This document shows, one piece after another, positions 18,526 through 57,448 of a stretch of DNA of 64,000 nucleotides (positions are counted from its first letter, which is position 1; each line of letters opens with the position of its first letter). Source of the DNA: Antrihabitans stalactiti (lineage in GTDB: Bacteria > Actinomycetota > Actinomycetes > Mycobacteriales > Mycobacteriaceae); assembly GCF_012932915.1 (NCBI RefSeq), contig NZ_VCQU01000006.1:310001-374000 (forward strand). The letters are read 5' to 3'. The position numbers and the translations under genes were made by a program. Below the pieces are notes generated by a model. It searched no databases. It was given only the letters and a program-made list of their open reading frames with translations, and was not told where the DNA came from.

Positions 18526-18571
18526 CTCGTGAGTCTTTTAGGAGTCCCTGGACTCCTAAAAGACTCACGAG
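18526..18571. repeat. GAGTC palindromic repeat, copy 1
   Basis: Two perfect 22-base arms (CTCGTGAGTCTTTTAGGAGT plus CC) are separated by CT. It lies directly after tRNA-Thr. The TGA in the right arm, read on the minus strand, is the stop codon of the GlxA-type regulator gene. It belongs to the subtype with TTTTAGG. The inner stem is followed by an A-run, not a U-run, so it is not a standard intrinsic terminator. Confidence 0.93.
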
Positions 18572-19512
18572 CTGGTGGTGGTGGTCGTGGTGAAGCGGCG
18601 TTTGTATTCGGTCGGGGTGAGGCCGAGGTGGCGGGCGAAGGCGCGGCGCAGGGATTCGTCGCTGCCGAGTCCGCTGCGACTGGCGGCCGCAGTGATGGTG
18701 TGCCCGTTGAGGATCAGTTGTTGAGCCTGGTCGAGGCGGACGCGTTCGATCCATCGTCCGGGGGTGGTGCCGAGTTCGCTGTTGAACAGTCGAGTGACCT
18801 GGCGGGTGCTCAGAGCGGCAGCAGCAGCGAGCGATTCGGCGTTGTGGTTGCCAGCGGGGTCGGCGTGAACGGCGTCGATGATGGTGCGCAGGGCCAGATT
18901 TCGAGTTGGCGGAGTGCGCAGTGCGGCGGAGAACTGGGATTGTCCGCCGGGCCGTTGCATGTAGACGACCAGTTCGCGGGCGACCGCACGGGCGGCGTCG
19001 GGTCCGTCATCGTGCTCGACCAGCGCCAAGGCCATGTCGATGCCGGCACTGATACCTGCCGAGGTGAGGTAGCGGCCGTCGCTGACGTGCAGTGCGTCGG
19101 GCACGACGTCGATGCGTGGATAGCGGTGGGCGAGCGTGCGGGTGCGTCGCCAATGGGTGGTGGCGCGGTGGCCGTCGAGCAAGCCGAGCTCGGCCAGCAC
19201 GAATGCGCCCGTGCACACCGAGGCGACCCGAGTGGCATTGGCAGCCAATGTGTTTGCGGCGCCGAGTAGCGAGTCGTCGACGCCGTGGTCGACTAGATAG
19301 TCGCTGCCCGGGACGACGACGGTGTCGAACGGTCCGGCATCCGCTGCGGCAGTCGTGTCGAGGGTGATCTTCGACGAGGTCGTGATCGGGCCGCCGTGGG
19401 GTGAGACCAGCACCGATTCGTACGTGCCTGCGGTGTGGAGGACTTCGATCGGTCCGGTGACATCGAGGAGTGTGACGTCCTCGAAGGCGAGGACTCCGAC
19501 CCGACGAGTCAT
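18565..19512 (-). CDS. GlxA family transcriptional regulator (DJ-1/PfpI + AraC domains)
   Basis: This 315-residue regulator has an N-terminal DJ-1/PfpI-like domain (VGVLAFEDVTLLDVTGPIEVL, with the elbow VASVCTGAFVLAELGLL) and a C-terminal AraC double helix-turn-helix (SLAAAAALSTRQVTRLFNSELG, then SRSGLGSDESLRRAFARHLG and PTEYKRRF). The ATG before TRRVGVLAF gives the normal family start; the open frame extends far upstream without support. The stop codon is supplied by the palindromic repeat. It is divergent from the two HD-domain genes and probably activates them in response to a small amide or amine signal; that is inference from arrangement. Confidence 0.9.
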   Translation of the reverse strand: MTRRVGVLAFEDVTLLDVTGPIEVLHTAGTYESVLVSPHGGPITTSSKITLDTTAAADAGPFDTVVVPGSDYLVDHGVDDSLLGAANTLAANATRVASVCTGAFVLAELGLLDGHRATTHWRRTRTLAHRYPRIDVVPDALHVSDGRYLTSAGISAGIDMALALVEHDDGPDAARAVARELVVYMQRPGGQSQFSAALRTPPTRNLALRTIIDAVHADPAGNHNAESLAAAAALSTRQVTRLFNSELGTTPGRWIERVRLDQAQQLILNGHTITAAASRSGLGSDESLRRAFARHLGLTPTEYKRRFTTTTTTSS

Positions 19513-19583
19513 GTCTGAATCTGTGGTTTGTTTGTCGATAAAGACATGGTGTGAGCGTAGCCGATGTCGGCACAGTGGACGGT

Positions 19584-20219
19584 ATGGAAACGATTGCAGG
19601 GGTCGAGATCCCCGACAGCGTGTTGGCCCGAGAGGCGACCGAGCTGGTCCGGGAGGTGGCGTCGCCGTTGCTGTTTCACCATTCGCGGCGGGTGTTCGTC
19701 TTCGGGGCTTTGCGGGGCCGCGCAGCCGGCCTCGATTTCGACCCGGAACTGCTATACGTGGGGGCAATGTTCCACGACCTGGGGTTGACCGAGAAGTTCC
19801 GAACAACCGACCAGCGCTTCGAGATCGACGGTGCCGACGAAGCCCGCCGGTTTCTCCGCTCGCACGGCGTCGACGGCGACGCGGCGGACCGAGTGTGGAC
19901 TGCGATCGCGTTGCACACCACACCAGAGATCCCGCTGCACATGGCGGCGGAAATCGCCTTGGTGACGCGCGGTGTCGAGTTGGACGTGCTGGGCATCGGC
20001 TACGACGCAATCACTGACGACCAGCGGGCACAGGTCGTCGCCGCGCATCCGCGACCGAACTTCAAAGCCGAGATCCTCGCAGCGTTCACCGACGGGATCC
20101 GGCATCGTCCGCAGACGACGTTCGGCAACGTCAAAGCGGACGTCCTCGCCCATTTCGTGCCTGGTTTCGTGCGCGGAGATTTCGTGGACGTCATCGAGAA
20201 CTCGCCGTGGCCGGCATGA
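19584..20219 (+). CDS. HD domain-containing protein (cyanamide hydratase-like), first of pair
   Basis: This is a metal-dependent HD-domain protein of 211 residues. Metal ligands are probably supplied by LLFHHSRRVFVFG, AMFHDLGL (the HD pair) and ALHTTPEIP. The arrangement resembles cyanamide hydratase and related urea-forming or nucleotide-cleaving HD enzymes. The ATG at 19584 was chosen; a GTG at 19551 would add 11 residues without a better ribosome site. It overlaps its paralogue downstream by four bases (ATGA) and is divergent from the GlxA-type regulator. The substrate is not known. Confidence 0.82.
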   Translation: METIAGVEIPDSVLAREATELVREVASPLLFHHSRRVFVFGALRGRAAGLDFDPELLYVGAMFHDLGLTEKFRTTDQRFEIDGADEARRFLRSHGVDGDAADRVWTAIALHTTPEIPLHMAAEIALVTRGVELDVLGIGYDAITDDQRAQVVAAHPRPNFKAEILAAFTDGIRHRPQTTFGNVKADVLAHFVPGFVRGDFVDVIENSPWPA

Positions 20220-20806
20220 ATACACCAGATACGGCCACCGCACGGACCGCGCTCGAGGTCGCGCGTCGATACCTTTCGCCCGCACTCTTCAATCACTCGG
20301 TGCGTTCGTACTACTGGGCTGAGGCGCTGGCACGCGAGGAAGCGGTCACAATCGATAGCGAGTTGCTCTATGTCGCGGCGATCTTCCACGACATCGGGCT
20401 GGTCCCCGAATTCGACGCGCACGCCATCGATTTCGAATATGCGGGCGGTCATGTGGCGGCGGTATTCGCCGCAGGTGCGGGCTGGTCTCCAGAACGAGGA
20501 CAGCGCCTCAACGACATCATCGTCCGGCATATGTGGGCGGACGTCGACGTCGAGACCGATCCCGAAGGGCACCTTCTCGAACGAGCCACCGGCATCGACA
20601 TCTCCGGACGTGGCGTCGATCTCGTCCCCGCCGCCACCCGCAGGCAGGTGCTTTCGGCATGGCCACGCCTGGGTCTGGCCGAGGAGTTCAACAGCTGTTT
20701 CGAGAATCAAGCTGCCCGCAAACCTGGCAGCACGGCCGCCCGAGCAGTGCAGAACGGGGTTGCAGACAAACTCCGCAACAACCCCCTCGAACACCCACCC
20801 TTGTGA
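20216..20806 (+). CDS. HD domain-containing protein (cyanamide hydratase-like), second of pair
   Basis: This 196-residue paralogue of the preceding HD protein has matching blocks in the same order: LSPALFNHSVRSYYWAEAL, LLYVAAIFHDIGLVPEFD, a central RHMWADVD in place of ALHTTPE, and LSAWPRLGLAEEFNSCF near the end. The HD pair is intact. The ATG overlaps the stop of the first copy. The last three codons and the TGA stop lie inside the left arm of a palindromic repeat, so the present C-terminus may have been set by the insertion. The two proteins may form a heteromer or act on related substrates. Confidence 0.82.
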   Translation: MNTPDTATARTALEVARRYLSPALFNHSVRSYYWAEALAREEAVTIDSELLYVAAIFHDIGLVPEFDAHAIDFEYAGGHVAAVFAAGAGWSPERGQRLNDIIVRHMWADVDVETDPEGHLLERATGIDISGRGVDLVPAATRRQVLSAWPRLGLAEEFNSCFENQAARKPGSTAARAVQNGVADKLRNNPLEHPPL

Positions 20807-20850
20807 GTCTTTTAGGAGTCTCTGGACTCCTAAAAGACTCACAAGGGTGG
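20795..20850. repeat. GAGTC palindromic repeat, copy 2
   Basis: Two perfect 26-base arms are separated by TCTG. The core is TTGTGAGTCTTTTAGGAGTC, extended outward by CCACCC/GGGTGG. It supplies the stop codon of the second HD-domain gene. It has the same TTTTAGG subtype as copy 1, so these two equal copies bracket the regulator/HD module. Confidence 0.93.
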
Positions 20851-20856
20851 GGAAGT

Positions 20857-20874
20857 CGAGTAGTGAACTACTCG
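20857..20874. promoter_or_regulatory. Palindrome CGAGTAGT-GA-ACTACTCG
   Basis: Perfect 8-base arms are separated by GA, 66 bases upstream of a possible small coding sequence. It looks like an operator. Nothing else recognisable lies between copy 2 of the repeat and 20941. Confidence 0.4.
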
Positions 20875-20940
20875 CGCGGCTGCGCCGTGAACTCTCTAGC
20901 GTCGATGTGTATCGAGTATCAGCTAGGTCAGGAGATCGGC

Positions 20941-21090
20941 ATGAATGCGACTGCCTTCCCTGAATCGGAAGAGCGACTGGTCACCAATGCGGGTGAAATC
21001 GATCGGCTCCTGCGATGCGGGACAGATTCACGACCGAACCGCGGCGGAGAGGACACGACCTCGAACGAGAACCGGTCCGACCTGGACTGA
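20941..21090 (+). CDS. Possible small protein, 49 aa
   Basis: This is an acidic, polar peptide starting MNATAFPESEERLVTNAGEI and ending SNENRSDLD, with no membrane segment or known motif. The case for it is an AGGAGA ribosome site six bases before the ATG and a palindrome upstream. It fills most of a 400-base gap between the HD genes and the LemA gene. It could equally be a chance frame. The rest of the gap (21091-21208) shows nothing I can assign. Confidence 0.4.
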   Translation: MNATAFPESEERLVTNAGEIDRLLRCGTDSRPNRGGEDTTSNENRSDLD

Positions 21091-21208
21091 TCGACTCGAA
21101 CTCACACCTTGGGTTGGTGTTCTTCACCCTCGGGTACCTACTGTGCAGCGCGCGTGAACCCAACACTGTGTCTGGGCATGTTCAGGCGTGGGGTGAAAGC
21201 AGGTAGGT

Positions 21209-21799
21209 GTGAGCGTTGTGGTCTTGAGCGTGCTCGTCGTGGTCGGCGCCGCCGTCGGGGCAGTGACGGTCGGTAGTTACAACGGGCTCGTCAGGAAACG
21301 CAACGCTGTCGACAACTCGTGGACCCGGTTGGACCTGCAGCTGAGGAAGCGGCACAACCTCGTCCACAATCTGGTCCACGCCGTCCGCGCGCACGCGGGT
21401 ACGGACCGCATTCAGGCCTTCGACGAGGTCAGCGCCGCCGCCGATGTTGCGATCGAGTCGTCGACTCCACCTGAGAAGGCGAAGGCAGAGGACGCGCTCA
21501 CCGTCGCTGTTCGTGGCGTCCTTGCGTCGGTGGGTCGGAATCCAAAGCTGAAGCGGAGCAGGCGATTCTTCGATCTCGAACTGGACCTGAATGACAGCGA
21601 GAATCGCATCGCCTACGCACGGCAATACTTCAATCTCGCAGTGCGCGACTACAACAAGGCAGTTCAGCGGATGCCCGTGTCGCTGCTCGCCGGAGTTCTG
21701 CGCTTCAGCCCACAGGAACCGTTCAACCACTCGGAGTCTGCGATGCCGTTTACCGCATGCCGGTCGTCACCGTCTAGCGCAGAGAAGCTACATTCCTGA
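21209..21799 (+). CDS. LemA family protein
   Basis: This is a membrane-anchored LemA protein of 196 residues. An N-terminal hydrophobic helix (about residues 2-21) is followed by the family signature YNGLVRKRNAVDNSWTRLDLQLRKRHNLVHNLVHAV, then a helical-bundle region with LDLNDSENRIAYARQYFNLAVRDYNKAVQRMP. The last 30 residues after FSPQEPF are not typical of the family. GTG 21209 is given as the start, but GTG 21218 has better spacing from AGGTAGG. LemA proteins are of unknown function and often occur beside TPM or protease genes; none is adjacent here. Confidence 0.88.
   Translation: MSVVVLSVLVVVGAAVGAVTVGSYNGLVRKRNAVDNSWTRLDLQLRKRHNLVHNLVHAVRAHAGTDRIQAFDEVSAAADVAIESSTPPEKAKAEDALTVAVRGVLASVGRNPKLKRSRRFFDLELDLNDSENRIAYARQYFNLAVRDYNKAVQRMPVSLLAGVLRFSPQEPFNHSESAMPFTACRSSPSSAEKLHS
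21789..21794 (+). promoter_or_regulatory. Possible -10 element of a leaderless transcript (dienelactone hydrolase gene)
   Basis: TACATT lies eight bases before the GTG start, a spacing expected if transcription begins at or near the start codon. It overlaps the end of the LemA gene. Confidence 0.35.
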
Positions 21800-21802
21800 G
21801 TT

Positions 21803-22504
21803 GTGGCCGACATCGAAGTCGAAACAGCGAAAGACCGTATCGAGGCGCGCCTCGAAATCCCCACAGGGGACGGACCGTGGCCTGGTGTCGTCGTCGTTCA
21901 TGACATGACGGCGTTCAACCAGGACATCAAAAACATCACTCGCAAGATCGCGGACAACGGGTATATCGCGCTTGCGCCGAACCTGTATTCACGCGGTGGA
22001 CCTGTGCTGTGTGTGCGGCGCGTGATTACCGACCTGTTCGCCCACAAAGGCCGGGCGATCGACGACATCGTCGCCGCGCGCGAGACTCTTGCCGCGCGCG
22101 AGGACTGCACCGGATCGATCGGCATCGTCGGCTTCTGCATGGGCGGCGGCTTCGCGCTGGTCATGGCATCCCAGGGCTTCGACGCCTCGGCGCCGTTCTA
22201 CCCTTCGCTCTTGCAGGACTACAACAAAGTCGTCGACGACGACGCATGCCCGATCGTCGCCAGCTTCGGCAAGCGCGACCCGATCCTGCAGGGTAGAGGT
22301 CCGAAGCTCGAAAAGACGCTGGAGCGTAAGGGAATTCCCCACGACGTCAAGGTCTACGACGGCGTGGGGCACAGCTTCGCGAATGAGCTCCCCGCCCAAC
22401 CCCTGCTACGGATCACCGGATTCGGCTACGGAGCCGAACAATCGGACGACGCATGGCGGCGGGTATTCGGCTTCTTCGACACCCACCTCACTCCTCAGAC
22501 CTGA
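21803..22504 (+). CDS. Dienelactone hydrolase family protein
   Basis: This 233-residue alpha/beta hydrolase has the dienelactone hydrolase Cys nucleophile in GFCMGGG (Cys112), GVVVVHDMTAFNQDI at the oxyanion strand, and a distal acid/His pair in ASFGKRDPIL and YDGVGHSFANE. The GTG directly follows the LemA gene. Family members open cyclic ester or dienelactone rings or act as general carboxylesterases; the actual substrate is unknown. Its last ten bases overlap the convergent decapeptide-repeat gene. Confidence 0.88.
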   Translation: MADIEVETAKDRIEARLEIPTGDGPWPGVVVVHDMTAFNQDIKNITRKIADNGYIALAPNLYSRGGPVLCVRRVITDLFAHKGRAIDDIVAARETLAAREDCTGSIGIVGFCMGGGFALVMASQGFDASAPFYPSLLQDYNKVVDDDACPIVASFGKRDPILQGRGPKLEKTLERKGIPHDVKVYDGVGHSFANELPAQPLLRITGFGYGAEQSDDAWRRVFGFFDTHLTPQT

Positions 22505-23169
22505 GGTTCTGACGGCGACCGTCGCAACCAGCGTCCTGGCGGGAATCGAGCCGCCAGTTCGGTGAGTCGGGCGGTCTGTTCCTGCAGCGCGTCGACACTT
22601 CGGTTGAATCGATCGAGGTTCGGCGCCAGTGACGCCATCACGTTTGTCAGGCTCACCACTTGATCGGCGACCCCGACGACCCGCTCGATCGCGCCCTGCT
22701 CGGCGACCAAGGTCTCGATAATGCCGCCGCGAGCGGTGAGCCGCTCGAGTGTGCCGTTCGGCGCAACCAGTCGGTCGACGAATCCGCCCGGTTCGAGCGA
22801 ACGGTCGACGATGCCGCCCGGCTCGAAGAGCCGCTCGATCGGACCGTCCGGCGCGAGCAAGCGATCCAACGGTCCGTCCCTGGCTGTCAGCCGGTCGGCG
22901 ACCCCGCCGCGCTGGAGAAATCTATCCAGGGGCCCGCCTGGGCGCAGTGATTGGCCCAGCGCGCGGTCCTCCGCCATCAGGGTCGACATGCGACCGGCGA
23001 ACCCGATCTGCGCGCCGACCGAGGTATCGGTGTTCACCTTCAACAGCGCCGCCTGAGCGCTGATCACCGATCGCGTCATCGCGAGGGAGCCCTCGGCGAC
23101 CATCAACGCAGAATCAGCGGTCACGAACGCAGCCCTCACTGGAAACAGCACCACAGTCGTTACGTCCAC
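22495..23169 (-). CDS. Protein with tandem decapeptide repeats
   Basis: I do not recognise a named family for this 224-residue protein. The N-terminal third is helical and weakly hydrophobic (VVLFPVRAAFVTADSALMVA). From about residue 80 to 166 there are eight or nine tandem ten-residue units of the form [LIV]-[DE]-R-L-x-x-x-G-G-x, for example LDRLLAPDGP, IERLFEPGGI, VDRLVAPNGT and LERLTARGGI. A C-terminal helix follows with a heptad-like LNVMASLAPNLDRFNRSVDALQEQ pattern and a basic tail. Such units can form a regular solenoid or amphipathic surface. The start codon is GTG, and the gene is divergent from phoP. Confidence 0.75.
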   Translation of the reverse strand: MDVTTVVLFPVRAAFVTADSALMVAEGSLAMTRSVISAQAALLKVNTDTSVGAQIGFAGRMSTLMAEDRALGQSLRPGGPLDRFLQRGGVADRLTARDGPLDRLLAPDGPIERLFEPGGIVDRSLEPGGFVDRLVAPNGTLERLTARGGIIETLVAEQGAIERVVGVADQVVSLTNVMASLAPNLDRFNRSVDALQEQTARLTELAARFPPGRWLRRSPSEPQV

Positions 23170-23277
23170 CCCGAAACTGTATGTGGCACTCCGCGTAACT
23201 GGGTTGCGTGATCGCTCACAGGAAACTTCCAGGAATTGCCCAGCTGATGCATAGCCGGTTGCGCAATGCTGTAGTCC

Positions 23278-23982
23278 GTGACCGTGTCGACTCCAGAAGC
23301 CCGCATCCTCGTGATCGATGACGAGGCGATGATCGTCGAGCTCCTAGCAGTCAGTTTGCGCTTCCAAGGCTTCGAAGTGTCGACCGCCAGCAACGGCGCC
23401 GAAGGCTTGGACAGGGCGCGAAACTTCCGCCCCGACGCGATGATCGTCGATGTGATGATGCCGGGAATGGACGGATTCGGCCTGCTGCGACGGCTTCGCG
23501 CGGACGGTGTGGATGCACCTGTGTTGTTTCTCACCGCCCGCGACGAGATCGAGGACAAGATCACAGGCTTGACACTCGGCGCAGACGACTACGTCACCAA
23601 GCCGTTCAGCCTCGAGGAAGTCGTCGCACGGCTGCGCGTCATCCTGCGTCGTTCCGGCAAAGTCGGCGAAGAGGTGCGCTCGCCGCGGCTCTCGTTCGCC
23701 GACATCGAGCTCGACGACGACACCCACGAAGTGTGGAAAGCCGGCGAAGCGGTTGCGCTCTCACCGACCGAATTCACGTTGTTGCGCTACTTCATGGTCA
23801 ACGCGGGCACTGTCTTGTCCAAACCGAGGATTCTGGACCACGTGTGGCGCTACGACTTCGGCGGCGAAGTGGGTGTGGTCGAGTCCTACGTCTCGTATCT
23901 GCGACGCAAGGTCGATACCGGCGACAAGCGGCTCATCCACACGCTGCGCGGAGTCGGGTACGTCATGCGTGAGCCTCGGTGA
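23278..23982 (+). CDS. phoP: Response regulator PhoP
   Basis: This is an OmpR-family response regulator of 234 residues. It reads very close to M. tuberculosis PhoP through its length: VDVMMPGMDGFGLLRRLRADG, TLGADDYVTKPFSLEEVVARLRVILRR, EVWKAGEAVALSPTEFTLLRYF, NAGTVLSKPRILDHVWRYDFGG and HTLRGVGYVMREPR. The phosphoacceptor is Asp58. In mycobacteria PhoP controls cell-envelope lipids, acid response and secretion. The GTG start leaves the full receiver domain. The stop overlaps the phoR start by four bases. Confidence 0.93.
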   Translation: MTVSTPEARILVIDDEAMIVELLAVSLRFQGFEVSTASNGAEGLDRARNFRPDAMIVDVMMPGMDGFGLLRRLRADGVDAPVLFLTARDEIEDKITGLTLGADDYVTKPFSLEEVVARLRVILRRSGKVGEEVRSPRLSFADIELDDDTHEVWKAGEAVALSPTEFTLLRYFMVNAGTVLSKPRILDHVWRYDFGGEVGVVESYVSYLRRKVDTGDKRLIHTLRGVGYVMREPR

Positions 23983-25889: not shown

Positions 25890-27116
25890 ATGATCAAAGC
25901 AGCGACGGCGCCCGAGCGCGGGGGAGTCGGCATCGTGTCCGGCCCGACCCTCGACATTGTCATTCCCGTCTACAACGAGGAAGCCGATCTTGACGAGTGC
26001 GTGCGCAGACTGCACCGCTTTCTCAGCTCCGAGGTGCCCTACTCTGCCCGAATCACCATCGCGGACAACGCGAGTACGGACGCGACGCTCGCGGTAGCGT
26101 ACAAGGTCGCATTGGAGCTCGATGGGATTCGGGTGCTCCACCTCGACGAGAAAGGCCGAGGGCGGGCGTTGCGGTCGGCGTGGTGCGCATCCGACGCGGC
26201 CGTCGTCGCCTACATGGACGTCGACCTGTCGACGGACCTCAATGCCCTGATGCCGTTGGTCGCACCGTTGGTTTCCGGGCACTCCGACGTTGCGATCGGT
26301 TCGCGATTGAGCCGGACCTCTCGTGTCGTCCGCGGTCCGAAGCGCGAATTCATCTCGCGCAGTTACAACCTCATCCTCCACGCGTCGTTGCAGACCAAGT
26401 TCTCCGACGCGCAGTGCGGCTTCAAAGCGATGCGGACGTCCGTCGCACGTCAACTGCTTCCCGTCGTCGAAGACAGCGAGTGGTTCTTCGACACCGAGAT
26501 GCTCGTGCTCGCCGAGCGGATCGGGTTGCGAATTCACGAGGTGCCTGTCGACTGGATCGACGACCCCGACTCACGGGTCGACATCGTCGACACCGTCCGT
26601 AAGGACTTGCTCGGCGTGTGGCGGTTGGGCCGCGCGCTGGCGCTCGGCACGTTGCCGCTCGACGAACTGCGGCGCAGCCTCGGACGTGAGCCGCTGGTTC
26701 CCGGTGTGCCGCGAGGAATGATCGGGCAGCTGGTCCGGTTCGGAATCGTCGGCGTGGCAAGCACACTCGCATACGCGCTGCTCTATCTCACCCTGCACGC
26801 GGCGATCGGTGCACAGGCTGCGAACTTCGTCGCACTGCTGGTCACGGCGATCCTGAATACTGCGGCCAACCGCGCGTTTACCTTCGGAGTCCGCGGATCC
26901 GCGCATGCTGCCAAGCATCAGATGCAGGGACTGCTGATCTTCGGTGTCGGGTTGGCCCTGACGAGTGGATCGCTGCTGGTGTTGCACCAATGGGCACCGT
27001 CGACGACGAAGCATGTGGAGTTGGCGGTCCTGGTTACGGCGAACCTGGTCGCGACGATCATTCGATTCGTCGGACTGCGTTGGGTGTTCCGCAACAACGA
27101 GTCGGTGGTCCGATGA
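25890..27116 (+). CDS. GT2 glycosyltransferase fused to GtrA-like membrane domain
   Basis: This 408-residue protein is a fusion. The N-terminal 250 residues are a dolichol-phosphate-mannose synthase-like GT2 domain (DIVIPVYNEEADL, TIADNASTDAT, AYMDVDLSTDL as the metal-binding DxD, and FSDAQCGFKAM). A C-terminal GtrA-like domain has four transmembrane helices beginning LVRFGIVGVASTLAYALLYL. It probably makes a polyprenyl-phosphate sugar and moves it across the membrane. The ATG chosen has no clear ribosome site; GGAGG is 22 bases upstream, so the start is uncertain. The next gene overlaps by four bases and encodes the GT39 enzyme that would use the lipid-linked sugar. Confidence 0.88.
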   Translation: MIKAATAPERGGVGIVSGPTLDIVIPVYNEEADLDECVRRLHRFLSSEVPYSARITIADNASTDATLAVAYKVALELDGIRVLHLDEKGRGRALRSAWCASDAAVVAYMDVDLSTDLNALMPLVAPLVSGHSDVAIGSRLSRTSRVVRGPKREFISRSYNLILHASLQTKFSDAQCGFKAMRTSVARQLLPVVEDSEWFFDTEMLVLAERIGLRIHEVPVDWIDDPDSRVDIVDTVRKDLLGVWRLGRALALGTLPLDELRRSLGREPLVPGVPRGMIGQLVRFGIVGVASTLAYALLYLTLHAAIGAQAANFVALLVTAILNTAANRAFTFGVRGSAHAAKHQMQGLLIFGVGLALTSGSLLVLHQWAPSTTKHVELAVLVTANLVATIIRFVGLRWVFRNNESVVR

Positions 27117-29107
27117 GTGCGACGATGACCGCGCCGCTGCCCGTAGCCGCACCGGAACCGAGGCACCGCCGAAGACAGTGGGAGCGTTACGCTCTCGCGG
27201 CCCTACTCATCGCCACGGCTGTGGCGTACGTGTGGGGCCTCGGTGCTGCGGGATGGGCAAACTCGTTCTATTCGGCCGCAGCACAAGCTGGTTCGGTCTC
27301 GTGGAAAGCCTTCCTGTTCGGCTCCTCGGATGCGGCGAACTCCATCACCGTCGACAAACCACCTGCGTCGCTGTGGCTCATGGCCCTGTCGGTCCGGGTG
27401 TTCGGTCTGAGCAGTTGGAGCATTCTGATTCCCCAAGCGTTGCTCGGCGTCGGCTCAGTTGCGTTGCTGTGGGCGACTGTGCGCCGGTACTTCGGCGCTG
27501 CGGCCGGTCTGCTGTCCGGCTTGGTCCTCGCGTTGACGCCCGTCGCGGTCTTGATGTTCCGTTTCAACAATCCCGATGCGCTGCTTGTGTTTCTGATGAT
27601 CGGCGCGGCGTGGGCGATGCTCCGCGGCGTCGAGGACGGTCGCACGAGGTGGCTGGTCGTCACCGGCGTCTTCGTCGGCTTCGGTTTCCTCACCAAGCAG
27701 CTGGCGGTGATGCTTGTGGTCCCGCCGCTCGCGCTGACGTACCTGCTCGCAGGTCCGCCGAAACTCGGCAAGCGAGTGCTGCAGCTGTTGGCCGCCGGCG
27801 TCGCGATGGCGGTGTCTGCGGGATGGTGGCTCCTCATGGTCGAGCTCTGGCCGACGTCGTCGCGACCGTGGATCGGTGGCTCGCAACATAATTCGATTCT
27901 GGAACTCACCATCGGTTACAACGGGCTCGGCCGCCTCGACGGCAACGAGCGTGGCAGTGTGGTGCCGAGCGGTGGCGAAATGCCAGCGGCATTCGCAGAT
28001 TTTGGCAACCGAGGCAACAGCATGTGGGGCTCGTCGGGAATCACGCGAATGTTCGACCCTGCGCAAGGCGGTCAGATCGCGTGGTTGATTCCAGCTGCGC
28101 TCGTCCTGATGCTGGTCGGAATTACTCTGCGTGGCAGGGCGTCTCGCACGGACCTGCGTCGCGCCTCGTTCGTGCTGTGGGGCGGCTGGCTGCTCGTCAC
28201 CGGGCTTGTCTTCAGCTTCATGGCGGGAATCTTCCACTCGTACTACACAGTTGCGCTCGCGCCTGCGGTCGCCGCACTCGTCGGATCCGGGTCCGTGCTG
28301 GCATGGCAACGGCGCGAACAGATCTGGGTGCGCGTCGTCTTCGCCGCGACCCTGGTGCTCACTGGTGTGACGTCGTGGATTCTGCTGAACCGCAGCCCCG
28401 ATTTCGTGCCCTGGCTTCGCTGGGTCGTCGCAGGGTTTACCTTGGTCGGCGTCATCCTCATTGCTTGTGAGTCTTTTTGGAGTCTATGGACTCCAAAAAG
28501 ACTCACGACGGCAGTTGTTCTGGCGGCGCTGTTCGTCGGCCTCGCTGGCCCAACCGCGTACGCCGCGGAGACCGTCGGACGGGCACGGCAAGGCGCCATC
28601 GTGTCGGCGGGACCCAACGTCGATTCCGGCTTCGGCTTCCCAGGCGGTCGCGATCTGCCGGGTATGCCAGGTGATGGGGCGCCGAGGCCGAACGGGCGGG
28701 CGGGAATGCCGGAAATGATGGAGCAAATGTTCGGGGGAGCAGGCAACTTGCTGATGGGCAGTAAGCCGAGCGACCGCATGATCGAGCTGCTCGAACAGAA
28801 CAGCGGCGCCTATACGTGGGTCGCGGCGACGGTGGGCGCAAACAGTGCGGCCGGGTACCAACTGGCGACTGAACTGCCCGTGATGCCGATCGGCGGCTTC
28901 AACGGAACCGATCCGTCGCCCACGCTCGACCAGTTCAAGCAGTACGTTTCGGAAGGCAAGGTGCACTACTTCATCGCCAGCGGGATGGGTCGAATGGGCG
29001 GAGACGAGGCCCGCGGATCGTCGACGATCACGCGATGGGTCGAAGCCAACTTCACCGTGACGGACGTCGACGGCGTGCAGCTCTATGACCTCACGGCTCC
29101 GAAATGA
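27113..29107 (+). CDS. GT39-family membrane glycosyltransferase (YkcB-like) with an in-frame palindromic insert
   Basis: This polytopic membrane glycosyltransferase of 664 residues belongs to the ArnT/PMT clan and would transfer a sugar from polyprenyl phosphate to an envelope acceptor. The first external loop carries the expected acidic/aromatic segment (WANSFYSAAAQAGSVSW, VDKPPASLW). About ten membrane helices follow. A Gly/Pro/Met-rich linker and a C-terminal soluble domain (from about 565: SDRMIELLEQNSGAYTWVAATVG) close the protein. Residues 452-465 (CESFWSLWTPKRLT), between two membrane helices, are encoded by copy 3 of the palindromic repeat and look inserted. The ATG overlaps the GT2-GtrA stop. 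Confidence 0.9.
   Translation: MSATMTAPLPVAAPEPRHRRRQWERYALAALLIATAVAYVWGLGAAGWANSFYSAAAQAGSVSWKAFLFGSSDAANSITVDKPPASLWLMALSVRVFGLSSWSILIPQALLGVGSVALLWATVRRYFGAAAGLLSGLVLALTPVAVLMFRFNNPDALLVFLMIGAAWAMLRGVEDGRTRWLVVTGVFVGFGFLTKQLAVMLVVPPLALTYLLAGPPKLGKRVLQLLAAGVAMAVSAGWWLLMVELWPTSSRPWIGGSQHNSILELTIGYNGLGRLDGNERGSVVPSGGEMPAAFADFGNRGNSMWGSSGITRMFDPAQGGQIAWLIPAALVLMLVGITLRGRASRTDLRRASFVLWGGWLLVTGLVFSFMAGIFHSYYTVALAPAVAALVGSGSVLAWQRREQIWVRVVFAATLVLTGVTSWILLNRSPDFVPWLRWVVAGFTLVGVILIACESFWSLWTPKRLTTAVVLAALFVGLAGPTAYAAETVGRARQGAIVSAGPNVDSGFGFPGGRDLPGMPGDGAPRPNGRAGMPEMMEQMFGGAGNLLMGSKPSDRMIELLEQNSGAYTWVAATVGANSAAGYQLATELPVMPIGGFNGTDPSPTLDQFKQYVSEGKVHYFIASGMGRMGGDEARGSSTITRWVEANFTVTDVDGVQLYDLTAPK
28467..28506. 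repeat. GAGTC palindromic repeat, copy 3 (inside a coding sequence)
   Basis: Arms of 18 bases (GTGAGTCTTTTTGGAGTC and its complement) surround TATG. It lies wholly inside the GT39 glycosyltransferase gene and is read through in frame as CESFWSLWTPKRLT. It has the TTTTTGG subtype, as does copy 4. Confidence 0.93.
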
Positions 29108-33200: not shown

Positions 33201-34619
33201 GTGCCTGTTCCTAATGTTCTTGCTACCCGCTACGCCAGCCCCGAGTTGGTGGCCCTGTGGTCTCCCGAATACAAGATCGTGCTCGAGCGGCAGCTGTGGC
33301 TCGAGGTGTTGCGGGCGCAGAGCGAACTCGGTGTCGCGGTGCCCGCCGAGGCGGTGGCGGATTACGAGCGTGTGCTCGAACAGGTCGACCTCGCGTCGAT
33401 CGCCGAACGCGAACGCGTCACGCGCCACGATGTGAAGGCCCGGATCGAGGAGTTCAACGCTCTCGCCGGTCATGAACACGTTCACAAGGGCATGACCAGC
33501 CGCGACCTCACCGAGAACGTCGAGCAGCTGCAGATCAAGCGCTCGCTCGAGCATGTTCATGCGCACGGCGTTGCTATCGCGGCGCGCTTGGCCGAGCGGG
33601 CGACCGAGTATCAGATGCTCGTCATGGCCGGGCGGTCACACAACGTCGCAGCTCAGGCGACGACCCTCGGCAAGCGCTTCGCGTCGGCCGCTGACGAACT
33701 GCTCGTGGCGCTGACGCGGGTGCGGGAGCTGATCGACCGCTACCCACTGCGTGGCATCAAGGGGCCGATGGGGACGGCGCAAGACATGCTCGACCTGCTC
33801 GACGGCGACCCCGCGAAGCTCGATGCCCTGGAGCGCAAGGTCGCTACCCATCTCGGGTTTGCGAACGTGCTGACCAGTGTCGGCCAGGTCTATCCACGTT
33901 CGCTCGACCACGAGGTCGTCTCGGCACTCGTGCAAGTTGCGGCTGGTCCGTCGTCGTTTGCGCACACGGTCCGGCTGATGGCAGGCCACGAACTCGTCAC
34001 CGAGGGCTTCCAGCCAGGCCAGGTCGGTTCTTCCGCGATGCCGCACAAGATGAATACGCGCTCGTGTGAGCGGGTGAACGGTCTGCAGGTGGTGCTGCGC
34101 GGTTATGGCTCGATGGCAGCCGAACTTGCAGGCGCGCAGTGGAACGAAGGTGATGTCTTCTGCTCCGTTGTGCGTCGAGTTGCCTTGCCGGACGCCTTCT
34201 TTGCCATCGACGGTTTGATGGAGACGTTCCTCACGGTCCTCGCCGAATTCGGGGCATACCCGGCCGTCATCGCCCGCGAGTTGGACCGCTACTTGCCGTT
34301 CCTCGCCACCACCCGGATGTTGATTGCTGCAGTACGGGCAGGCGTCGGACGTGAAACGGCGCACGAGGTCATCAAGGAGCACGCGGTCGCGGTCGCCTTG
34401 GCGATGCGCGAGCAAGGTCGCGAGCCCGACCTGCTGGACCGGCTCGCTGCCGACGATCGCTTCCCGCTCGACCGCGCCCAGCTCGACGCGGCGCTTGCCG
34501 ATCGGTCCGCGTTCATCGGCGCCGCGGAGGCGCAGGTGACGGCTGTCGTCGCAGCTGTGCAAAAGCTTGCCGACGAATACCCCGACGCAGCCCGCTACGT
34601 CCCCTCGCCGATTCTTTAG
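33201..34619 (+). CDS. purB: Adenylosuccinate lyase PurB
   Basis: This enzyme acts twice in purine synthesis, splitting fumarate from SAICAR and from adenylosuccinate. The 472 residues show RYASPELVALWSPEYKIVLERQLWLEVL at the N-terminus, HEHVHKGMTSRDLTENVEQLQ, AGRSHNVAAQATTLGKRFA and the superfamily signature GSSAMPHKMNTRSCERVNGL with the catalytic Ser. The GTG follows CAAAAT by six bases, consistent with a leaderless transcript. A palindromic repeat begins ten bases after the stop, before a HIT-family gene. Confidence 0.97.
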   Translation: MPVPNVLATRYASPELVALWSPEYKIVLERQLWLEVLRAQSELGVAVPAEAVADYERVLEQVDLASIAERERVTRHDVKARIEEFNALAGHEHVHKGMTSRDLTENVEQLQIKRSLEHVHAHGVAIAARLAERATEYQMLVMAGRSHNVAAQATTLGKRFASAADELLVALTRVRELIDRYPLRGIKGPMGTAQDMLDLLDGDPAKLDALERKVATHLGFANVLTSVGQVYPRSLDHEVVSALVQVAAGPSSFAHTVRLMAGHELVTEGFQPGQVGSSAMPHKMNTRSCERVNGLQVVLRGYGSMAAELAGAQWNEGDVFCSVVRRVALPDAFFAIDGLMETFLTVLAEFGAYPAVIARELDRYLPFLATTRMLIAAVRAGVGRETAHEVIKEHAVAVALAMREQGREPDLLDRLAADDRFPLDRAQLDAALADRSAFIGAAEAQVTAVVAAVQKLADEYPDAARYVPSPIL

Positions 34620-34628: not shown

Positions 34629-34672
34629 TTGTGAGTCTTTTTGGAGTCCCTGGACTCCAAAAAGACTCACAA
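34629..34672. repeat. GAGTC palindromic repeat, copy 4
   Basis: Two perfect 21-base arms (TTGTGAGTCTTTTTGGAGTC plus C) are separated by CT. It lies between purB and the HIT gene and is fully intergenic. The four GAGTC/GACTC units start at 34633, 34644, 34653 and 34664, that is 11, 9 and 11 bases apart. Confidence 0.93.
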
Positions 34673-34688: not shown

Positions 34689-35117
34689 GTGACGATTTTC
34701 GCTGAGATCATCGCCGGTCGCGCGCCGGCGAGCCGGGTGTACGAGGACGACGACGTCCTGGCTTTCATGGATATCCGGCCGTTCACGCCGGGCCACCTCC
34801 TCGTGATTCCGAAGGTCCCGGCGAGCAGCCTCGCCGAGCTCGACCCGGCGATCGGCGGCAGGCTGTTCCAAGTCGGTCAGCTGCTCGCCGCGGCCTTGCG
34901 TGAGAGCGAGGTCGGCTGTGACGGGGTCAACTTCTTCCTGGCCGACGGCGTCACGGCCGGTCAAGAGGTTTTTCACGTCCATTTGCACGTGATTCCGCGG
35001 AAAGCTGGCGACGGCTTCGGGCTCCGCGGGCGACCGACGAGCCCGCGCCGACCGGACCTCGATTACCTGGCGTCGTCGATCAAGCGCGCTCTGCCCGGCG
35101 ACTCCTCCCGCGCCTGA
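34689..35117 (+). CDS. HIT family protein (second, downstream of purB)
   Basis: This 142-residue histidine triad protein begins MTIFAEIIAGRAPASRVYEDDDVLAFMDI, has the nucleotide-binding PFTPGHLLVIPK, and the triad VFHVHLHVIPRK. It is related to, but not the same subtype as, the phoR-linked HIT protein. GTG 34689 is chosen because CCGGAGG lies six bases upstream; an in-frame ATG at 34641 lies inside the palindromic repeat and would add a repeat-derived peptide. It probably hydrolyses adenylated metabolites. The last 38 bases overlap the convergent DUF2330 gene. Confidence 0.92.
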   Translation: MTIFAEIIAGRAPASRVYEDDDVLAFMDIRPFTPGHLLVIPKVPASSLAELDPAIGGRLFQVGQLLAAALRESEVGCDGVNFFLADGVTAGQEVFHVHLHVIPRKAGDGFGLRGRPTSPRRPDLDYLASSIKRALPGDSSRA

Positions 35118-47826: not shown

Positions 47827-47847
47827 GCCTCACGACGGATGTTCAGC

Positions 47848-49475: not shown

Positions 49476-49482
49476 TCCACGA

Positions 49483-51042: not shown

Positions 51043-51049
51043 CGCAGTC

Positions 51050-52318: not shown

Positions 52319-52372
52319 TGGTCGGTGGTGCGTGGAAGCCCTCACGGCCCGGTGACCTGGAAAGTGGCCGAC

Positions 52373-52378
52373 TAGACT
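52373..52378 (+). promoter_or_regulatory. -10 element upstream of purL
   Basis: TAGACT lies 46 bases before the purL GTG, giving a short leader with AAAGGA near its end. The same hexamer TAGACT is found upstream of purF. Confidence 0.4.
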
Positions 52379-52424
52379 CTCTTCGAGGCTCCACGCCCGC
52401 AGGACCGAAAGGACGCCACTCTCC

Positions 52425-54719
52425 GTGACTACGCAGGTCGATACCGTCAGCGCAGCCGCAGCATCTCCCGACAACCCGCAGCCGTACAAAGAGCTCGGTC
52501 TCAAGGACGACGAGTATGTGCGGATCAAGGAGATCCTCGGTCGCCGGCCGACTGATGCCGAGCTCGCGATGTACTCGGTGATGTGGAGCGAGCACTGCTC
52601 GTACAAGTCGTCGAAGGTGCATCTGCGCTACTTCGGTGAAACCACGACCGACGAGATGCGGGCCTCGATGCTCGCGGGCATCGGCGAGAACGCGGGCGTC
52701 GTCGACGTCGGCGACGGCTGGGCAGTCACGTTCAAGGTCGAAAGCCACAATCACCCGTCCTATGTCGAGCCCTATCAGGGTGCGGCGACCGGAGTCGGCG
52801 GCATCGTGCGCGACATCATGGCGATGGGCGCGCGGCCGATCGCGGTCATGGATCAGCTTCGCTTCGGTGCCGCGGATGCTCCCGATACCCGTCGCGTGGT
52901 CGACGGTGTCGTGCGCGGTGTCGGCGGCTACGGCAACTCGCTCGGGCTGCCGAATGTCGGCGGCGAGACCGTCTTCGACGAATCCTATGCAGGAAACCCG
53001 CTGGTGAATGCGCTGTGCGCAGGCGTCATGCGAGTCGAGGACCTGCATCTTGCATTCGCGTCCGGAGCGGGCAACAAGATCATTCTGTTCGGCGCGCGGA
53101 CTGGCCTCGACGGAATCGGTGGCGTATCGGTCCTGGCGAGCGACACGTTCTCCGGTGACGAGTCCGGCACAGGTCGCAAGAAGCTGCCTGCGGTTCAGGT
53201 CGGCGACCCGTTCACCGAGAAGGTGCTGATCGAGTGTTGCCTCGATCTGTATGCCGCCAAGCTGGTCGTCGGTATTCAGGATCTCGGTGGCGCTGGATTG
53301 TCTTGCGCCACTTCTGAACTGGCTGCTGCTGGTGACGGTGGTATGCATATCGATCTGGACAAGGTGCCGCTGCGGGCGACGAATATGACGCCGGCCGAGG
53401 TGCTGTCGAGCGAGTCGCAAGAGCGCATGTGCGCCGTCGTCACACCGGAGAACGTGGATGCGTTCATGGCGGTCTGCAAGAAGTGGGACGTGCTGGCCAC
53501 GGTCATCGGCGAGGTCACCGACGGCGACCATCTTGTCATTTCCTGGAATGGCGAGACCGTCGTGGACGTGCCGCCGCGCACGGTCGCGCACGAGGGTCCC
53601 GTCTACACCCGGCCCGTCGAACGGCCGGCCGATCAGGACGATCTGATTGCCGCATCGCCGGATTCGCTGCCCCGCCCGTCAACTCCTGACGAACTGCGCG
53701 CGACCCTGCTGCAGATGCTCGGCAGTCCGCAATTATGCAGTCGCCGTTGGATAGTCGAGCAGTACGACCGCTACGTCCGGGGTAACACGGTCCTCGCCGA
53801 GCACGCCGATGCGGGCGTGATCCGGATCGACGAGGAAACCGGTCGGGGTATTGCCTTGGCAACGGATGCGTCCGGCCGCTATACGAAGCTCGACCCGTAC
53901 ACCGGTGCGCAGTTGGCGCTGGCCGAGGCGTTCCGCAACGTCGCCACCACAGGCGCCACCCCGAAAGCAGTGACCAACTGCCTCAACTTCGGCTCGCCCG
54001 AAGATCCCGGCGTGATGTGGCAGTTCCAGCAAGCTGTGCGTGGTCTCGCGGATGGCTGTGCGACGCTTGGCATTCCGGTGACGGGCGGCAACGTCAGTTT
54101 CTACAACCAGACCGGTCGGACGCCGATCCTGCCGACGCCAGTCGTCGGTGTGCTCGGTGTCATCGACGACGTGCACCGGCGCATTCCGACCGGCATCGGC
54201 CACGAGTTGGGGGAGACCCTGATTCTGCTCGGCGATACCCACGACGAATTCGGCGGATCGATCTGGGCCCAGGTCGCGCACGATCACCTCGGTGGCGTAC
54301 CGCCGAAGGTCGACTTCGCTCGTGAGCAACTGCTCGCCGAGATTCTGCTTGCGGGTTCGCGCGACGGCATGATCAGCGCTGCGCACGACCTGTCGGAAGG
54401 TGGTCTCGCGCAGACCGTCGTCGAAGCAGCCCTCGCGGGCGAAACTGGTTGCCGGATAATCCTTCCCGAGGGTGCCGACCCATTTGTCGCGTTGTTCTCC
54501 GAATCGGCTGGCCGCGTGTTGGTCGCCGTTCCGCGCACGGAGGAAACGCGGTTCACGAAGATGTGTGACGCACGGTCGATGCCGTGGGTGCGCATCGGCG
54601 TGGTCGACCAAGGCTCCGACTCCGTGGAGGTCCAGGGCGTGTTCGACGTGCCCCTCACCGAATTGCGCACGACGTTCGAGGCAACGCTGCCCGCGTTGTT
54701 CGGGACGCACGCGGATTGA
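52425..54719 (+). CDS. purL: Phosphoribosylformylglycinamidine synthase subunit PurL
   Basis: This is the ATP-dependent synthetase subunit of FGAM synthase, 764 residues, of the small (PurLQS) type. Landmarks are [51 protein letters not shown] and [12 protein letters not shown] in the first half. The second half repeats the fold with [28 protein letters not shown] and [11 protein letters not shown]. The GTG follows AAAGGA. Its stop overlaps the TTG start of the next gene (TTGA). PurS and PurQ are encoded 3 kb upstream. Confidence 0.97.
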
Positions 54720-56446
54720 CCATCGCTACCGTCGAACAGAGCCCCGCGCGCCGCGTCGCGCGGCGGCTCTCGCGGGTCGGGCGTGCGATAGATCTGAACT
54801 TCGTCGGACTTGTCGTTGCCGGCATCTTCTTCGCGTGGTCGGTGACTCCATCACTGCTGCCGCGGGATTGGATGTTTCAAGGGCTGATCAGCGGGATCAA
54901 CGCTGCGCTGGGTTATGGCCTCGGGTGTGTGTTGGAATGGCTGTTCCGCAGGCTGATTCGGCCGCGATTGCGCATATCGGCGCCGCCGCAATGGGTTTCG
55001 TTCAGTCTGAAGGTAGCGATCCTGGTGACCGTGCTCGGCGGCGCTGCCTACATGCTGGTGCTGGCTGCGCAATGGCAACGGCACCAATCGACGCTCATGG
55101 GCATGGTCGGCACGACGACACCTGCGTACTTTCGTACGGGCGCACTGAGTTTCGTCGTCATCACTGCTATTGTCGCGGCGTTTCGCATGGTCCGCAGGAT
55201 TGTGCGGTGGAATGCGAAGCTGTTGAATCGATGGATTCGCATTCCGAGATCGGTTGCGCCGACCGTAGGTTCGTTCGTCGTCGTCGTAGTTGCCGTGACG
55301 TTGTTCAACGGTGTTCTCGCGCGCGGGTTCTTCGCCGCAGCCAACTCGTTGTTCAGCATTCGCAACGATCAGACGTCGCCTGCCGCTGTGCAGCCCCAAG
55401 GGCCTGAGCGGTCCGGGAGTCCGTCTTCGCTGATTCCGTGGAAGACGCTCGGTTCCGAAGGTCGCTGGTTCGTATCGCAGGGCCTGGACGCAGGGCTGAT
55501 CGGACTCACGACAGGTAAGGCAGCGAAGGAGCCGATTCGGGTGTACTCGGGCCTCGAGTCCGCGAATGGCCCAGCGGCACAGGCGGATCTCGCGGTCGCC
55601 GAGCTGGAGCGGACGCACGCCTTCGACCGAAAAGTGCTCGTCGTCATCACAACGACGGGTACCGGGTGGGTGAACTCGACGGCGGCGTCGGCGATAGAGC
55701 TGATGTACGGCGGCGACACGGCGATTGTCGCGACGCAGTATTCGTATCTGCCGAGCGTGCTGTCGTTTCTTGCCGACCGCACGAAGGTTGCAGAGGCAGG
55801 CGCGATCTTGTTCGACAAGGTCTACGAACACTGGGCGCAACGCCCGGAGGAACTTCGGCCGAAGTTGCTCGTGTACGGGGAGAGCCTCGGGTCGCAGGGT
55901 TCCGAGGCTGCGTTCGACGGGATCGGGGAATTGCGGTCCAAGGTCGACGGTGCGCTGTGGGTGGGCCCGCCGAACTCGAATCGTATTTGGGGGCAATTCG
56001 TTTCGCGCCGCGACCCAGGAAGTCCCGAGGTCGAGCCGGTCTACGCCGACGGCTTGGTCGTGCGATTCGGCGGCGATGAGGAAGACCTGGAACAGCCGCC
56101 GAGACCGTGGCTGATGCCACGCGTGGCGTATCTGCAGCATCCGTCGGATCCGATTGTGTGGTGGTCGCCGGACCTGCTGTTCTCGCGCCCGGACTGGTTG
56201 TCCGAGCCACGCGGCGCCGACGTGACCAACGAGGTCACCTGGCGGCCCGTCGTCACCTTCTGGCAGGTGGCTGCCGACCTGACCAATGCAACCTCGGTGC
56301 CCGCCGGTCACGGTCACCGGTACGGGACGTTGGTACTCGACGCGTGGGTCGCGTTGTTGCCGCCGCCGGATTGGACGCAGGCCGACACCGAACGAGTCCG
56401 CGCCGTGCTCGATGCGTTGGACGAGCAAGAGCAAGAAGCGAAATGA
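54716..56446 (+). CDS. Membrane alpha/beta-hydrolase family protein (Abhydrolase_9 type)
   Basis: This 576-residue protein has a membrane N-terminal half with about five hydrophobic helices ([26 protein letters not shown] is typical) and a C-terminal hydrolase-like domain with the elbow [14 protein letters not shown] and [24 protein letters not shown]. This is the architecture of the actinobacterial Abhydrolase_9 family. The TTG start overlaps the purL stop (TTGA); no other start fits better. It forms an overlapping run with the CPBP protease and SCP-like genes. The substrate is unknown; an envelope lipid is likely from its membrane location. Confidence 0.85.
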
Positions 56447-57048
56447 CTGGTCGCGTCGTGGCGTGTGCAGCAATCGCCGTTCCGCTGCTGTGGAGCAACT
56501 GGGCCTTGCCCGCCGCCGGGCTCGGTCCGCGCGGCCGCACGTTCGCGAACGCCTGCTTCGCCACGGGCTACGGGCTCGCGCTGGGCAGGCGGGTGCCGTG
56601 GCTGACGCGGGACGGCCTGGTCGTCGGGGCTGCAGCGGCCGTAGCGCCGCTGGCGGGCTATGGGGTCGTCGCATCGCTGCCTGCTGCTCGGGCGGCCGTC
56701 GGCGAGGCGCCGCGTGACGACCTTGCCGAGTGGACGCTGGTGCACATTCCGATCGGCACGGTCTATGCCGAGGAGCTGATCTTCCGTGGCACCTTGGATC
56801 CATTGCTGGAGAACGTGTTCGGGCCGCAGGTCGGTGGTGTGCTCGGTGCGGCGACGTTCGGCCTGTGGCACATCCAGCCTGCGCGGGTAGCGGAGCAGAA
56901 TGTGGTCGGGACCGTTGTCGCCACCAGCCTCGCGGGCCTGGTGTTCGGCTGGCTGCGGCATCGAGGTGGCAGCGTCGTCGCACCGGCTTTGCTCCATTTC
57001 GCCCTCAATGTGGGTGGGGCAGTGCTGGCGTCGAAGGTCCAGTCGTGA
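56443..57048 (+). CDS. CPBP family intramembrane metalloprotease
   Basis: This 201-residue polytopic protein is of the CAAX protease/bacteriocin-processing (CPBP) family. The active-site motifs are present: YAEELIFRG (EExxxR), GLWHIQP and LLHFALN. About six hydrophobic segments can be seen. The ATG overlaps the preceding stop (ATGA) and its stop overlaps the next start (GTGA). The family includes prenyl-protein proteases and bacterial immunity or processing proteins; here the partner is unknown. Confidence 0.9.
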   Translation: MTGRVVACAAIAVPLLWSNWALPAAGLGPRGRTFANACFATGYGLALGRRVPWLTRDGLVVGAAAAVAPLAGYGVVASLPAARAAVGEAPRDDLAEWTLVHIPIGTVYAEELIFRGTLDPLLENVFGPQVGGVLGAATFGLWHIQPARVAEQNVVGTVVATSLAGLVFGWLRHRGGSVVAPALLHFALNVGGAVLASKVQS

Positions 57049-57407
57049 GCGATCTTCGCGCTGACCTTCTCGCCGTGGCGGAGTGGCTGCGCGACGAAGC
57101 GACCCCCGCCCCGGACCGGAAAGTGCTGGCAGCTGCTGTACGCACCAGCGCCCGTGCGTTGGCAAAAGACGCGCCGGGCAAGTCGGTGGAGGTCCGAGTC
57201 CCGCCTTTCGTTGCAGTGCAATGCATTTCCGGACCGCGGCACACCAGAGGAACGCCACCCAATGTTGTCGAGACCGACGCCCGGACCTGGTTGCTCCTCG
57301 CCACCGGTCTCCTGACCTTCGAGAAAGCAGTCGAGGAAACCAGGGTCATGGCATCGGGGAGCCGGGCGAGCGAGGTCGCGCAGTGGCTCCCGCTCCTACC
57401 CTTGTGA
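57045..57407 (+). CDS. Sterol carrier-like (SCP orthologue) family protein
   Basis: This 120-residue protein has the sequence VEVRVPPFVAVQCISGPRHTRGTPPNVVETDARTWLLLATG, typical of the small actinobacterial proteins related to sterol carrier and maleylpyruvate isomerase-like domains, usually encoded just before purF (Rv0807 in M. tuberculosis, from memory). The GTG overlaps the CPBP gene. The final codons and the TGA stop lie in the left arm of palindromic repeat copy 5. The ligand is unknown. Confidence 0.85.
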   Translation: MSDLRADLLAVAEWLRDEATPAPDRKVLAAAVRTSARALAKDAPGKSVEVRVPPFVAVQCISGPRHTRGTPPNVVETDARTWLLLATGLLTFEKAVEETRVMASGSRASEVAQWLPLLPL

Positions 57408-57448
57408 GTCTTTTTGGAGTCCAGGGACTCCTAAAAGACTCACGAGGG
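57399..57448. repeat. GAGTC palindromic repeat, copy 5 (hybrid)
   Basis: Arms of 24 bases around AG differ at two positions. The left arm has the TTTTTGG subtype and the right arm the TTTTAGG subtype (read on the minus strand), so it looks like a recombinant of the two. It supplies the stop codons of both convergent neighbours, the SCP-like gene and the YhgE/Pip-like gene. Confidence 0.93.

Follow-up and report, generated by a model that had tools for sequence, protein, structure and literature searches.

Repetitive extragenic palindromic (REP) sequences and bacterial interspersed mosaic elements (BIMEs) with GTAG or CGTC tags lie within 20 bp of gene 3′ ends when they are placed between convergent genes, often provide a TAG stop codon with their own ends and in some cases reside inside open reading frames (ORFs), according to the part of PMC3733652 available to us; Actinobacteria are absent from the phyla given there for either type of repeat. 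The RepRanger table includes three Actinomycetota genomes with predicted palindromic elements, so that REP-like palindromes are not new to this phylum as such, and the accessible main text names neither Rhodococcus, Mycobacterium, Nocardia nor Gordonia and offers no sequence family to compare (PMC12306157). REP sequences are targets of the insertion sequences IS1397, IS621, ISKpn1, ISPpu9/10, ISPa11 and ISRm22 (excerpts of PMC1525189), and spaced pairs of palindromic motifs near 3′ ends, intergenic, frequent between convergent genes and of unknown function, have been described in other genomes (PMC5217627, in part). Here we describe five palindromes in a 64-kb stretch of the Antrihabitans stalactiti genome (the window; contig NZ_VCQU01000006.1, positions 310,001–374,000) that probably represent a REP-like, non-autonomous dispersed element, which would spread without a REP-associated tyrosine transposase (RAYT) and form an RNA hairpin at gene 3′ ends that is not a U-tract terminator.

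The unit is an inverted repeat of 40–56 bp with an outer arm, TCGTGAGTCTTTT in the source assembly (G000; 6.76 Mb, 26 contigs), a more variable inner stem and a centre of 2–4 bases. An 18-base arm with up to 3 mismatches matched this genome 217 times on the plus and 218 times on the minus strand, compared with 2 and 0 matches for the same arm pattern read backwards. Similarly, a strict palindrome pattern gave 147 and 148 matches by strand (control, 0), and the relaxed pattern GTGAGTCNTTTN{6,34}AAANGACTCAC recovered 191 palindromes. Comparison of these genome counts with the reversed control excludes a chance origin, and the counts are above the 100 short intergenic palindromes per genome expected of REP families. 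The genome-wide search proposed in the initial annotation has thus uncovered a large family rather than few copies at conserved sites: it comprises about 200 copies, and seven of ten orthologous sites compared are occupied in one species only.

The family has a narrow distribution. The strict pattern was not found in any of 150 relatives, three congeners among them (G001, G002 and G003), and the relaxed pattern, applied to 150 genomes across the order (a set without G001 and the g21 genomes), matched G000 only. A similarity search followed by a palindrome scan revealed that G001, which shares about 70–82% DNA identity with G000, holds its own diverged version, typically CTCGTGAGTCTTTTCGGAGG..., with 113 palindromes by the relaxed pattern. 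Seven of 401 genomes of the taxonomic family matched this pattern: G000, G001 and five of the six genomes of another genus (g21) with 1 to 3 palindromes each, in which the GTGAGTC arm is present partly by construction because the pattern requires it. When 400 kb of G167, a genome from another genus, was scanned openly for palindromes, four hairpins with GTGAGTC arms also appeared (L196:1926, L199:253, L201:4348 and L202:2378; L-numbers denote sampled stretches with the position), two of them already known from the relaxed pattern. The inner stems of the copies from this other genus differ from those of G000 and are mostly paired. G002 and G003 gave no match to the relaxed pattern, and open scans of 200 kb each yielded one related-looking hairpin, judged by eye, in G002 (L166:1159) and one in G003 (L177:2866), the latter with the centre GAGTCTATGGACTC of window copy 3. 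A look into related genera, also suggested at the outset, returned few copies in g21, and the congener G001 has the diverged version. No palindrome was seen by eye among the 34 stretches listed for GAGTCTTTTWGGAGTC in a wide collection of genome contigs, which may leave out records near G000. Window copy 4 gave one 20-base match to plasmids (E 3) and none to phages, the tRNA-Thr gene was the sole Rfam match in the window at the gathering score, with no family for the palindromes, and no description of the sequence was found in the open-access literature.

To place the copies relative to genes, we used 40 stretches of G000, 38 chosen around exact arm matches and 2 adjoining the window, with genes called by a codon-usage script. 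Together with the window they contain 69 copies, of which 64 have both arms and full flanks. Thirty-one copies lie between convergent genes, 26 between tandem and 5 between divergent genes, 5 are at stretch edges and 2 are flagged by the gene caller as inside genes; one of the five counted as divergent is window copy 3, which is really inside an ORF with Pfam domains that the gene caller missed. In 58 of the 69 copies a stop codon is found no more than 60 nt from the centre, compared with 23% of random intergenic points, and stops are present on both sides in 25 (random, 2.7%). The corresponding numbers for 28 copies profiled in G001, from stretches fetched around similarity matches and then scanned for palindromes, are 24 and 8 (random, 25% and 2.8%). 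Seventeen stop codons, in 16 copies of G000, are the TGA within the GTGAGTC arm (offset 16). Among 32 nearby stops in G001, 15 are located at offsets 35–36 from the centre and 20 are TAG (background 31%), and the element is often bounded by TAG/CTA, indicating that its boundary often supplies the stop. The median convergent gap in G000 measures 56 bp where a copy is present (n = 32) and 3 bp elsewhere (n = 94); the element therefore makes up nearly the whole gap. Mapping of the copies against genes thus places most of them just behind stop codons, in the convergent and co-directional junctions that are typical of REP sequences.

The same placement could be that of bidirectional terminators without a U-tract, retained by selection where convergent genes end and multiplied as convenient modules. 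The 31 convergent copies, the 25 with stops on both sides, the very stable hairpins (−29 to −49 kcal/mol for the window copies as RNA) and the location of window copy 1, 8 bases past the tRNA-Thr gene (18443–18517), are in line with such a role, which we nevertheless consider unlikely. The initial annotation had noted that the T-run precedes the inner stem and the A-run follows it and had found standard intrinsic termination inadequate, and both statements hold: the U-run lies in the 5′ arm rather than directly after the stem, T is not enriched after the hairpin in the G000 profile, and hairpins upstream of the T-run are not in excess over shuffled flanks (7 of 128 arms versus 9.1 expected for stems of at least 6; 13 of 128 versus 20.2 for stems of at least 5). 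Moreover, copies split the co-directional sufS/sufU-like and lyase/HIT gene pairs, where a strong terminator would be costly, and one copy is inside a coding region. Because the U-run is misplaced and these co-directional pairs are tight in relatives, 3′-end protection or RNase III-type processing would be a more likely RNA role than termination. A permissive count of canonical terminators (convergent gaps, 10 of 32 with a copy and 5 of 94 without; tandem gaps above 40 bp, 3 of 26 and 7 of 160) was dropped as evidence of termination because the shuffled-flank test gave no excess; the count tolerates a mismatch and wobble pairs and can pick up the T-run of the element itself.

Ten orthologous sites were compared between G000 and its congeners, and seven were filled in one species only, two were shared and one was ambiguous. 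The ortholog table had 17 rows, with one site listed twice and seven rows dropped because they were anchored on one side only or differed in gene content (window copy 1, L121:8213, L123:123, L123:5990, L123:10015, L131:8856 and L113:9348); L083:12842 was added, the other two copies in L083 being not resolvable. The L083 copy separates the sufS-like from the sufU-like gene of a SUF cluster (Pfam Aminotran_5 and NifU_N), with ABC_tran and FeS_assembly_P genes as neighbours. Two of the ten sites are shared with arms that differ in sequence and are still paired, which indicates that some copies are old. Mobility appears to be the cause of the spread.

The palindrome is itself the target of an insertion sequence. 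The ends of this element, TGTCCAG... and TGTGCTG..., have 15 exact matches in G000 in a search that did not require the palindrome; all 15 follow GACTC, 14 are close to contig ends, and the 14 flanks inspected are all half palindromes broken at the same base. Nine further matches with 3 mismatches comprise eight internal repeats of one end and one further place, C20:263946 (a contig position). A related insertion sequence in G001 has 8 right and 6 left ends, the left ones found via their internal repeat, and all 14 lie in the palindrome of that species at the equivalent position. In both species together, 28 of 28 inspected ends abut a half palindrome at one fixed position, while G002 and G003 gave one 3-mismatch match each, the control level. 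Each of the two end types includes the 14-bp centre in full, which a target duplication of 14 bp would explain most simply. As the body of the element is unassembled, left ends could not be matched to right ends. A 96-residue C-terminal transposase fragment had no Pfam match, one NCBIfam match that is not credible (E 0.077) and no plasmid match; the element may be IS481-like. Several breaks of the G000 draft, at ends of contigs C3, C4, C7, C9, C10, C13, C20, C21, C22, C23 and C25, fall in this insertion sequence. Another copy of the G001 palindrome is interrupted by an IS30-family transposase gene (NF033563, 3.1e-90; L116:3653-4894).

This arrangement resembles that of the REP-targeting insertion sequences, whose copies occupy one position of a repeated palindrome, in the case of ISRm22 the palindrome axis, and differs from it in that the full 14-bp centre is present at either type of end and the transposase is unassembled (PMC1525189, for the part considered). 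Another possibility is that the palindromes are miniature inverted-repeat transposable elements (MITEs) descended from a DDE transposon, the ends of which would have turned into the palindrome. The copies are short, palindromic, non-coding and numerous and have empty sites, as would be expected of MITEs, but the insertion sequence in the palindrome has other ends and uses the palindrome as its target, no full-length element with the palindrome's ends was seen in the stretches fetched, and a target-site duplication of the palindrome could not be demonstrated. Similarly, no transposase gene flanked by GTGAGTCTTTT arms was noticed in these stretches, in which no systematic search was made. We regard this origin as very improbable.

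Most arm positions carry one base in at least 63 of the 64 complete copies of G000, an invariance that is overstated by the choice of stretches around exact matches, and variation is concentrated at the centre, at the outer edge and at base five of the T-run. A covariation test of 36 positions showed that the T-run position covaries with its partner (44 of 64 paired versus 24 expected, p 0.001) and an outer C/T position does so weakly (53 versus 46.4, p 0.011), with no covariation at the other variable positions. In G001, one of 36 positions tested covaries (23 versus 18.4 expected, 28 copies, p 0.011). The arms of window copies 1–4 are perfect outside the centre, as previously reported, and the GAGTC/GACTC units, for which a spacing of 11, 9 and 11 bases had been given for copy 4, have the same spacing in all five copies. 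Four helically spaced GAGTC units are, however, not a conserved feature: G001 keeps the outer GTGAGTC, with GGAGG mostly in place of the inner GGAGTC of G000, and both G001 and g21 retain a long hairpin although they have lost the inner GAGTC pair.

The palindromes could also be binding sites of a nucleoid or segregation DNA-binding protein, with the palindromy reflecting a dimer and half-sites about one helical turn apart. Such a protein would account for the near-identity of the outer arm in G000 (in stretches picked around exact matches), its presence in another genus in the four copies of the open G167 scan and the 11-9-11 spacing. It would not account for the loss of the inner GAGTC pair with retention of the long hairpin or for the 3′-end bias, and the sites are mostly not common to congeners. 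We consider this reading quite improbable.

Among 31 G001 copies, 23 left and 25 right flanks form mini-hairpins of at least 4 pairs, compared with an expectation of about 3; their stems are of several kinds and most of the loops are TNC. In g21, either flank forms one in 4 of 12 copies (expectation 0.9 and 1.9; the 12 rows include two repeats), and G000 has no excess (3 of 64 per side versus 4.7 expected). Insertion into the loop of a pre-existing hairpin, suggested by the single copies L081:10422 and L091:7551, was rejected; flank complementarity was 4.72 versus 4.74 for shuffled pairs in G000 (64 copies, z −0.16) and 5.11 versus 5.92 in G001 (28 copies, z −1.83).

The family shares with REP sequences and BIMEs its high copy number, its stem-loops and its position in convergent and co-directional junctions, and the two mini-hairpins of the G001 copies recall REP dimers (PMC3733652, in the part used here). 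It differs from them, as they are described there, in its longer palindrome (40–56 bp instead of a 20–40 bp stem-loop), in the absence of a GTAG or CGTC tag from the window copies and from the G000 position profile, and in that no RAYT was found in 11 genomes; in G001, TAG is frequent and the preceding base varies, as judged by eye. The palindrome thus works like a REP or BIME by analogy, yet we do not class it as a member, because tag and RAYT were looked for and were not found. The spaced palindromic motifs concern other organisms and sequences, and no targeting by insertion sequences is described in the available part of that report (PMC5217627). Given about 200 copies in the genome, their position at gene 3′ ends, orthologous sites that are empty and an insertion sequence targeting the repeat, the data favour the REP-like or MITE-like reading first given for this locus, in its REP-like form. 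A more specific proposal, which we put forward tentatively, is that the palindromes may constitute a REP system of Actinobacteria that is independent of RAYTs. Its element would have three hairpins, with two mini-hairpins (mostly TNC triloops) around a long palindrome and often stop codons at its ends; it would spread in an undescribed manner, with a constant outer arm and an inner stem that differs between species, and be paired with a centre-targeting insertion sequence in two species.

Several observations weigh against a mobile REP-like element with an RNA role. The REP-associated transposase whose search had been recommended did not turn up: PF01797 (Y1/RAYT transposase) had no match in 4 and 7 draft genomes, 11 in all, of which 8 carry one of the palindrome patterns (search controls positive in 5 of 14), and no spreading enzyme was found by this route. 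Variable inner-stem positions in G001 do not covary beyond chance, and the invariance of the arm in G000 could reflect selection for a bound protein. Gain and loss of a copy would look alike at most one-species sites, and the flanks are too diverged, relatives being about 70–82% identical, for a target-site duplication of the palindrome to be read. Window copy 3 replaces about 10 codons rather than being a clean insertion. Finally, the proposed RNA role is derived from sequence.

The coordinates of the five window copies, exact on re-reading, and the results for the orthologous sites are given in the table. Beyond these copies, a search of the window at up to 5 mismatches per arm found one partnerless arm with 5 mismatches at 10299. 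The TCA/TGA of copy 1 is the stop of the reverse-strand gene 18565–19512 (DJ-1/PfpI and AraC-type helix-turn-helix), and the TGA of copy 2 is the stop of the HD-domain gene 20216–20806 (+). Copy 4 lies between the adenylosuccinate lyase-like gene 33249–34619 (+) and the HIT-domain gene 34689–35117 (+). The TGA triplets of copy 5 end the reverse-strand gene 57440–58684 (DUF3533/ABC2 membrane) and the mechanical plus-strand ORF 56730–57407, which was not chosen by the gene caller; its mismatches are CTTG versus CGAG and TTTTT versus TAAAA. Copy 3 encodes CESFWSLWTPKRLT, and the G001 and G003 proteins are shorter by 4 and 3 residues (the G002 sequence, from a wrong ORF, was left out). Rickettsia palindromic elements are likewise palindromic repeats in frame in coding regions. 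Copy 3 is like them, whereas coding copies are exceptional here (two gene-caller flags and copy 3 among 69).

Table. Palindrome copies in the window and their occurrence at orthologous sites
Feature	Position	Strand	Description	Orthologous site
Palindrome copy 1	18526..18571		arms perfect	
Palindrome copy 2	20795..20850		longest arms, 26 bp	
Mannosyltransferase-like membrane protein ORF (PMT_2, YkcB_C)	26990..29107	+	holds copy 3	
Palindrome copy 3	28467..28506		in frame within ORF 26990-29107	G000 only; missing in G001, G003
Palindrome copy 4	34629..34672		between adenylosuccinate lyase-like and HIT-domain genes	G000 only; junction just a few bases in G001, G003
Palindrome copy 5	57399..57448		two mismatched positions	
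G000 copy	L083:12842			G000 only; junction tight in G001, G002, G003
G001 copies	L101:18797, L102:6660, L110:18231, L117:3884			missing in G000
Shared copy	L123:14514 with L110:1292		sequence differs, arms still paired	shared
Shared copy	L129:3908 with L111:7334		shortened palindrome; sequence differs, arms still paired	shared
Ambiguous site	L110:2451			G000 retains half-arm-like remnant only

Other palindromes were observed in G000. A second family, with variants of CTGTGCGCGAGTTTCACCCC..GGGGTGAGACTCGCGCACAG, is present at L082:3457-3502, L100:14677-14728, L126:8144-8187, L128:16876-16915 and L140:16123-16168; its pattern GTGCGCGNGTTN{8,34}AACNCGCGCAC occurs 8 times in G000, 4 times in G064, 3 times in G048, twice in G027 and in none of the other 117 of 121 genomes, and similar hairpins exist in G167 (L191, L196). 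A third, near-identical inverted repeat, AGGCTCTGCATCGGTT..CCGATGCAGAGCCT, occurs twice (L086:3557-3592 and L133:18981-19018), and a hybrid-looking palindrome, GCACTGTGAGCTTTCAGGAGTCCAAAGACTCCTGAAAGCTCACAGTGC (L087:19503-19550), has the inner GGAGTC and the GTGAG arm in common with the main family.

For the REP-like palindrome, these data are consistent with a model in which copies would enter gene ends and tight gene junctions and be retained where they do little harm, behind stop codons and often bringing their own, with occasional tolerance in frame within a gene. Transcription of either strand would then produce a long, nearly perfect hairpin immediately after the reading frame (18–26 bp for the window copies), most likely a 3′-end barrier or a processing site for a double-strand RNase that sets mRNA stability, and a dedicated insertion sequence would in turn target the palindrome centre. 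The REP elements understood best are those maintained by a RAYT, and a family of about 200 copies for which this enzyme was sought and not found raises the question of how such palindromes spread and how their arms are conserved. With an insertion sequence paired to the repeat and with copies that fall within recognisable operons, both mobility and the effect on RNA would be directly testable.

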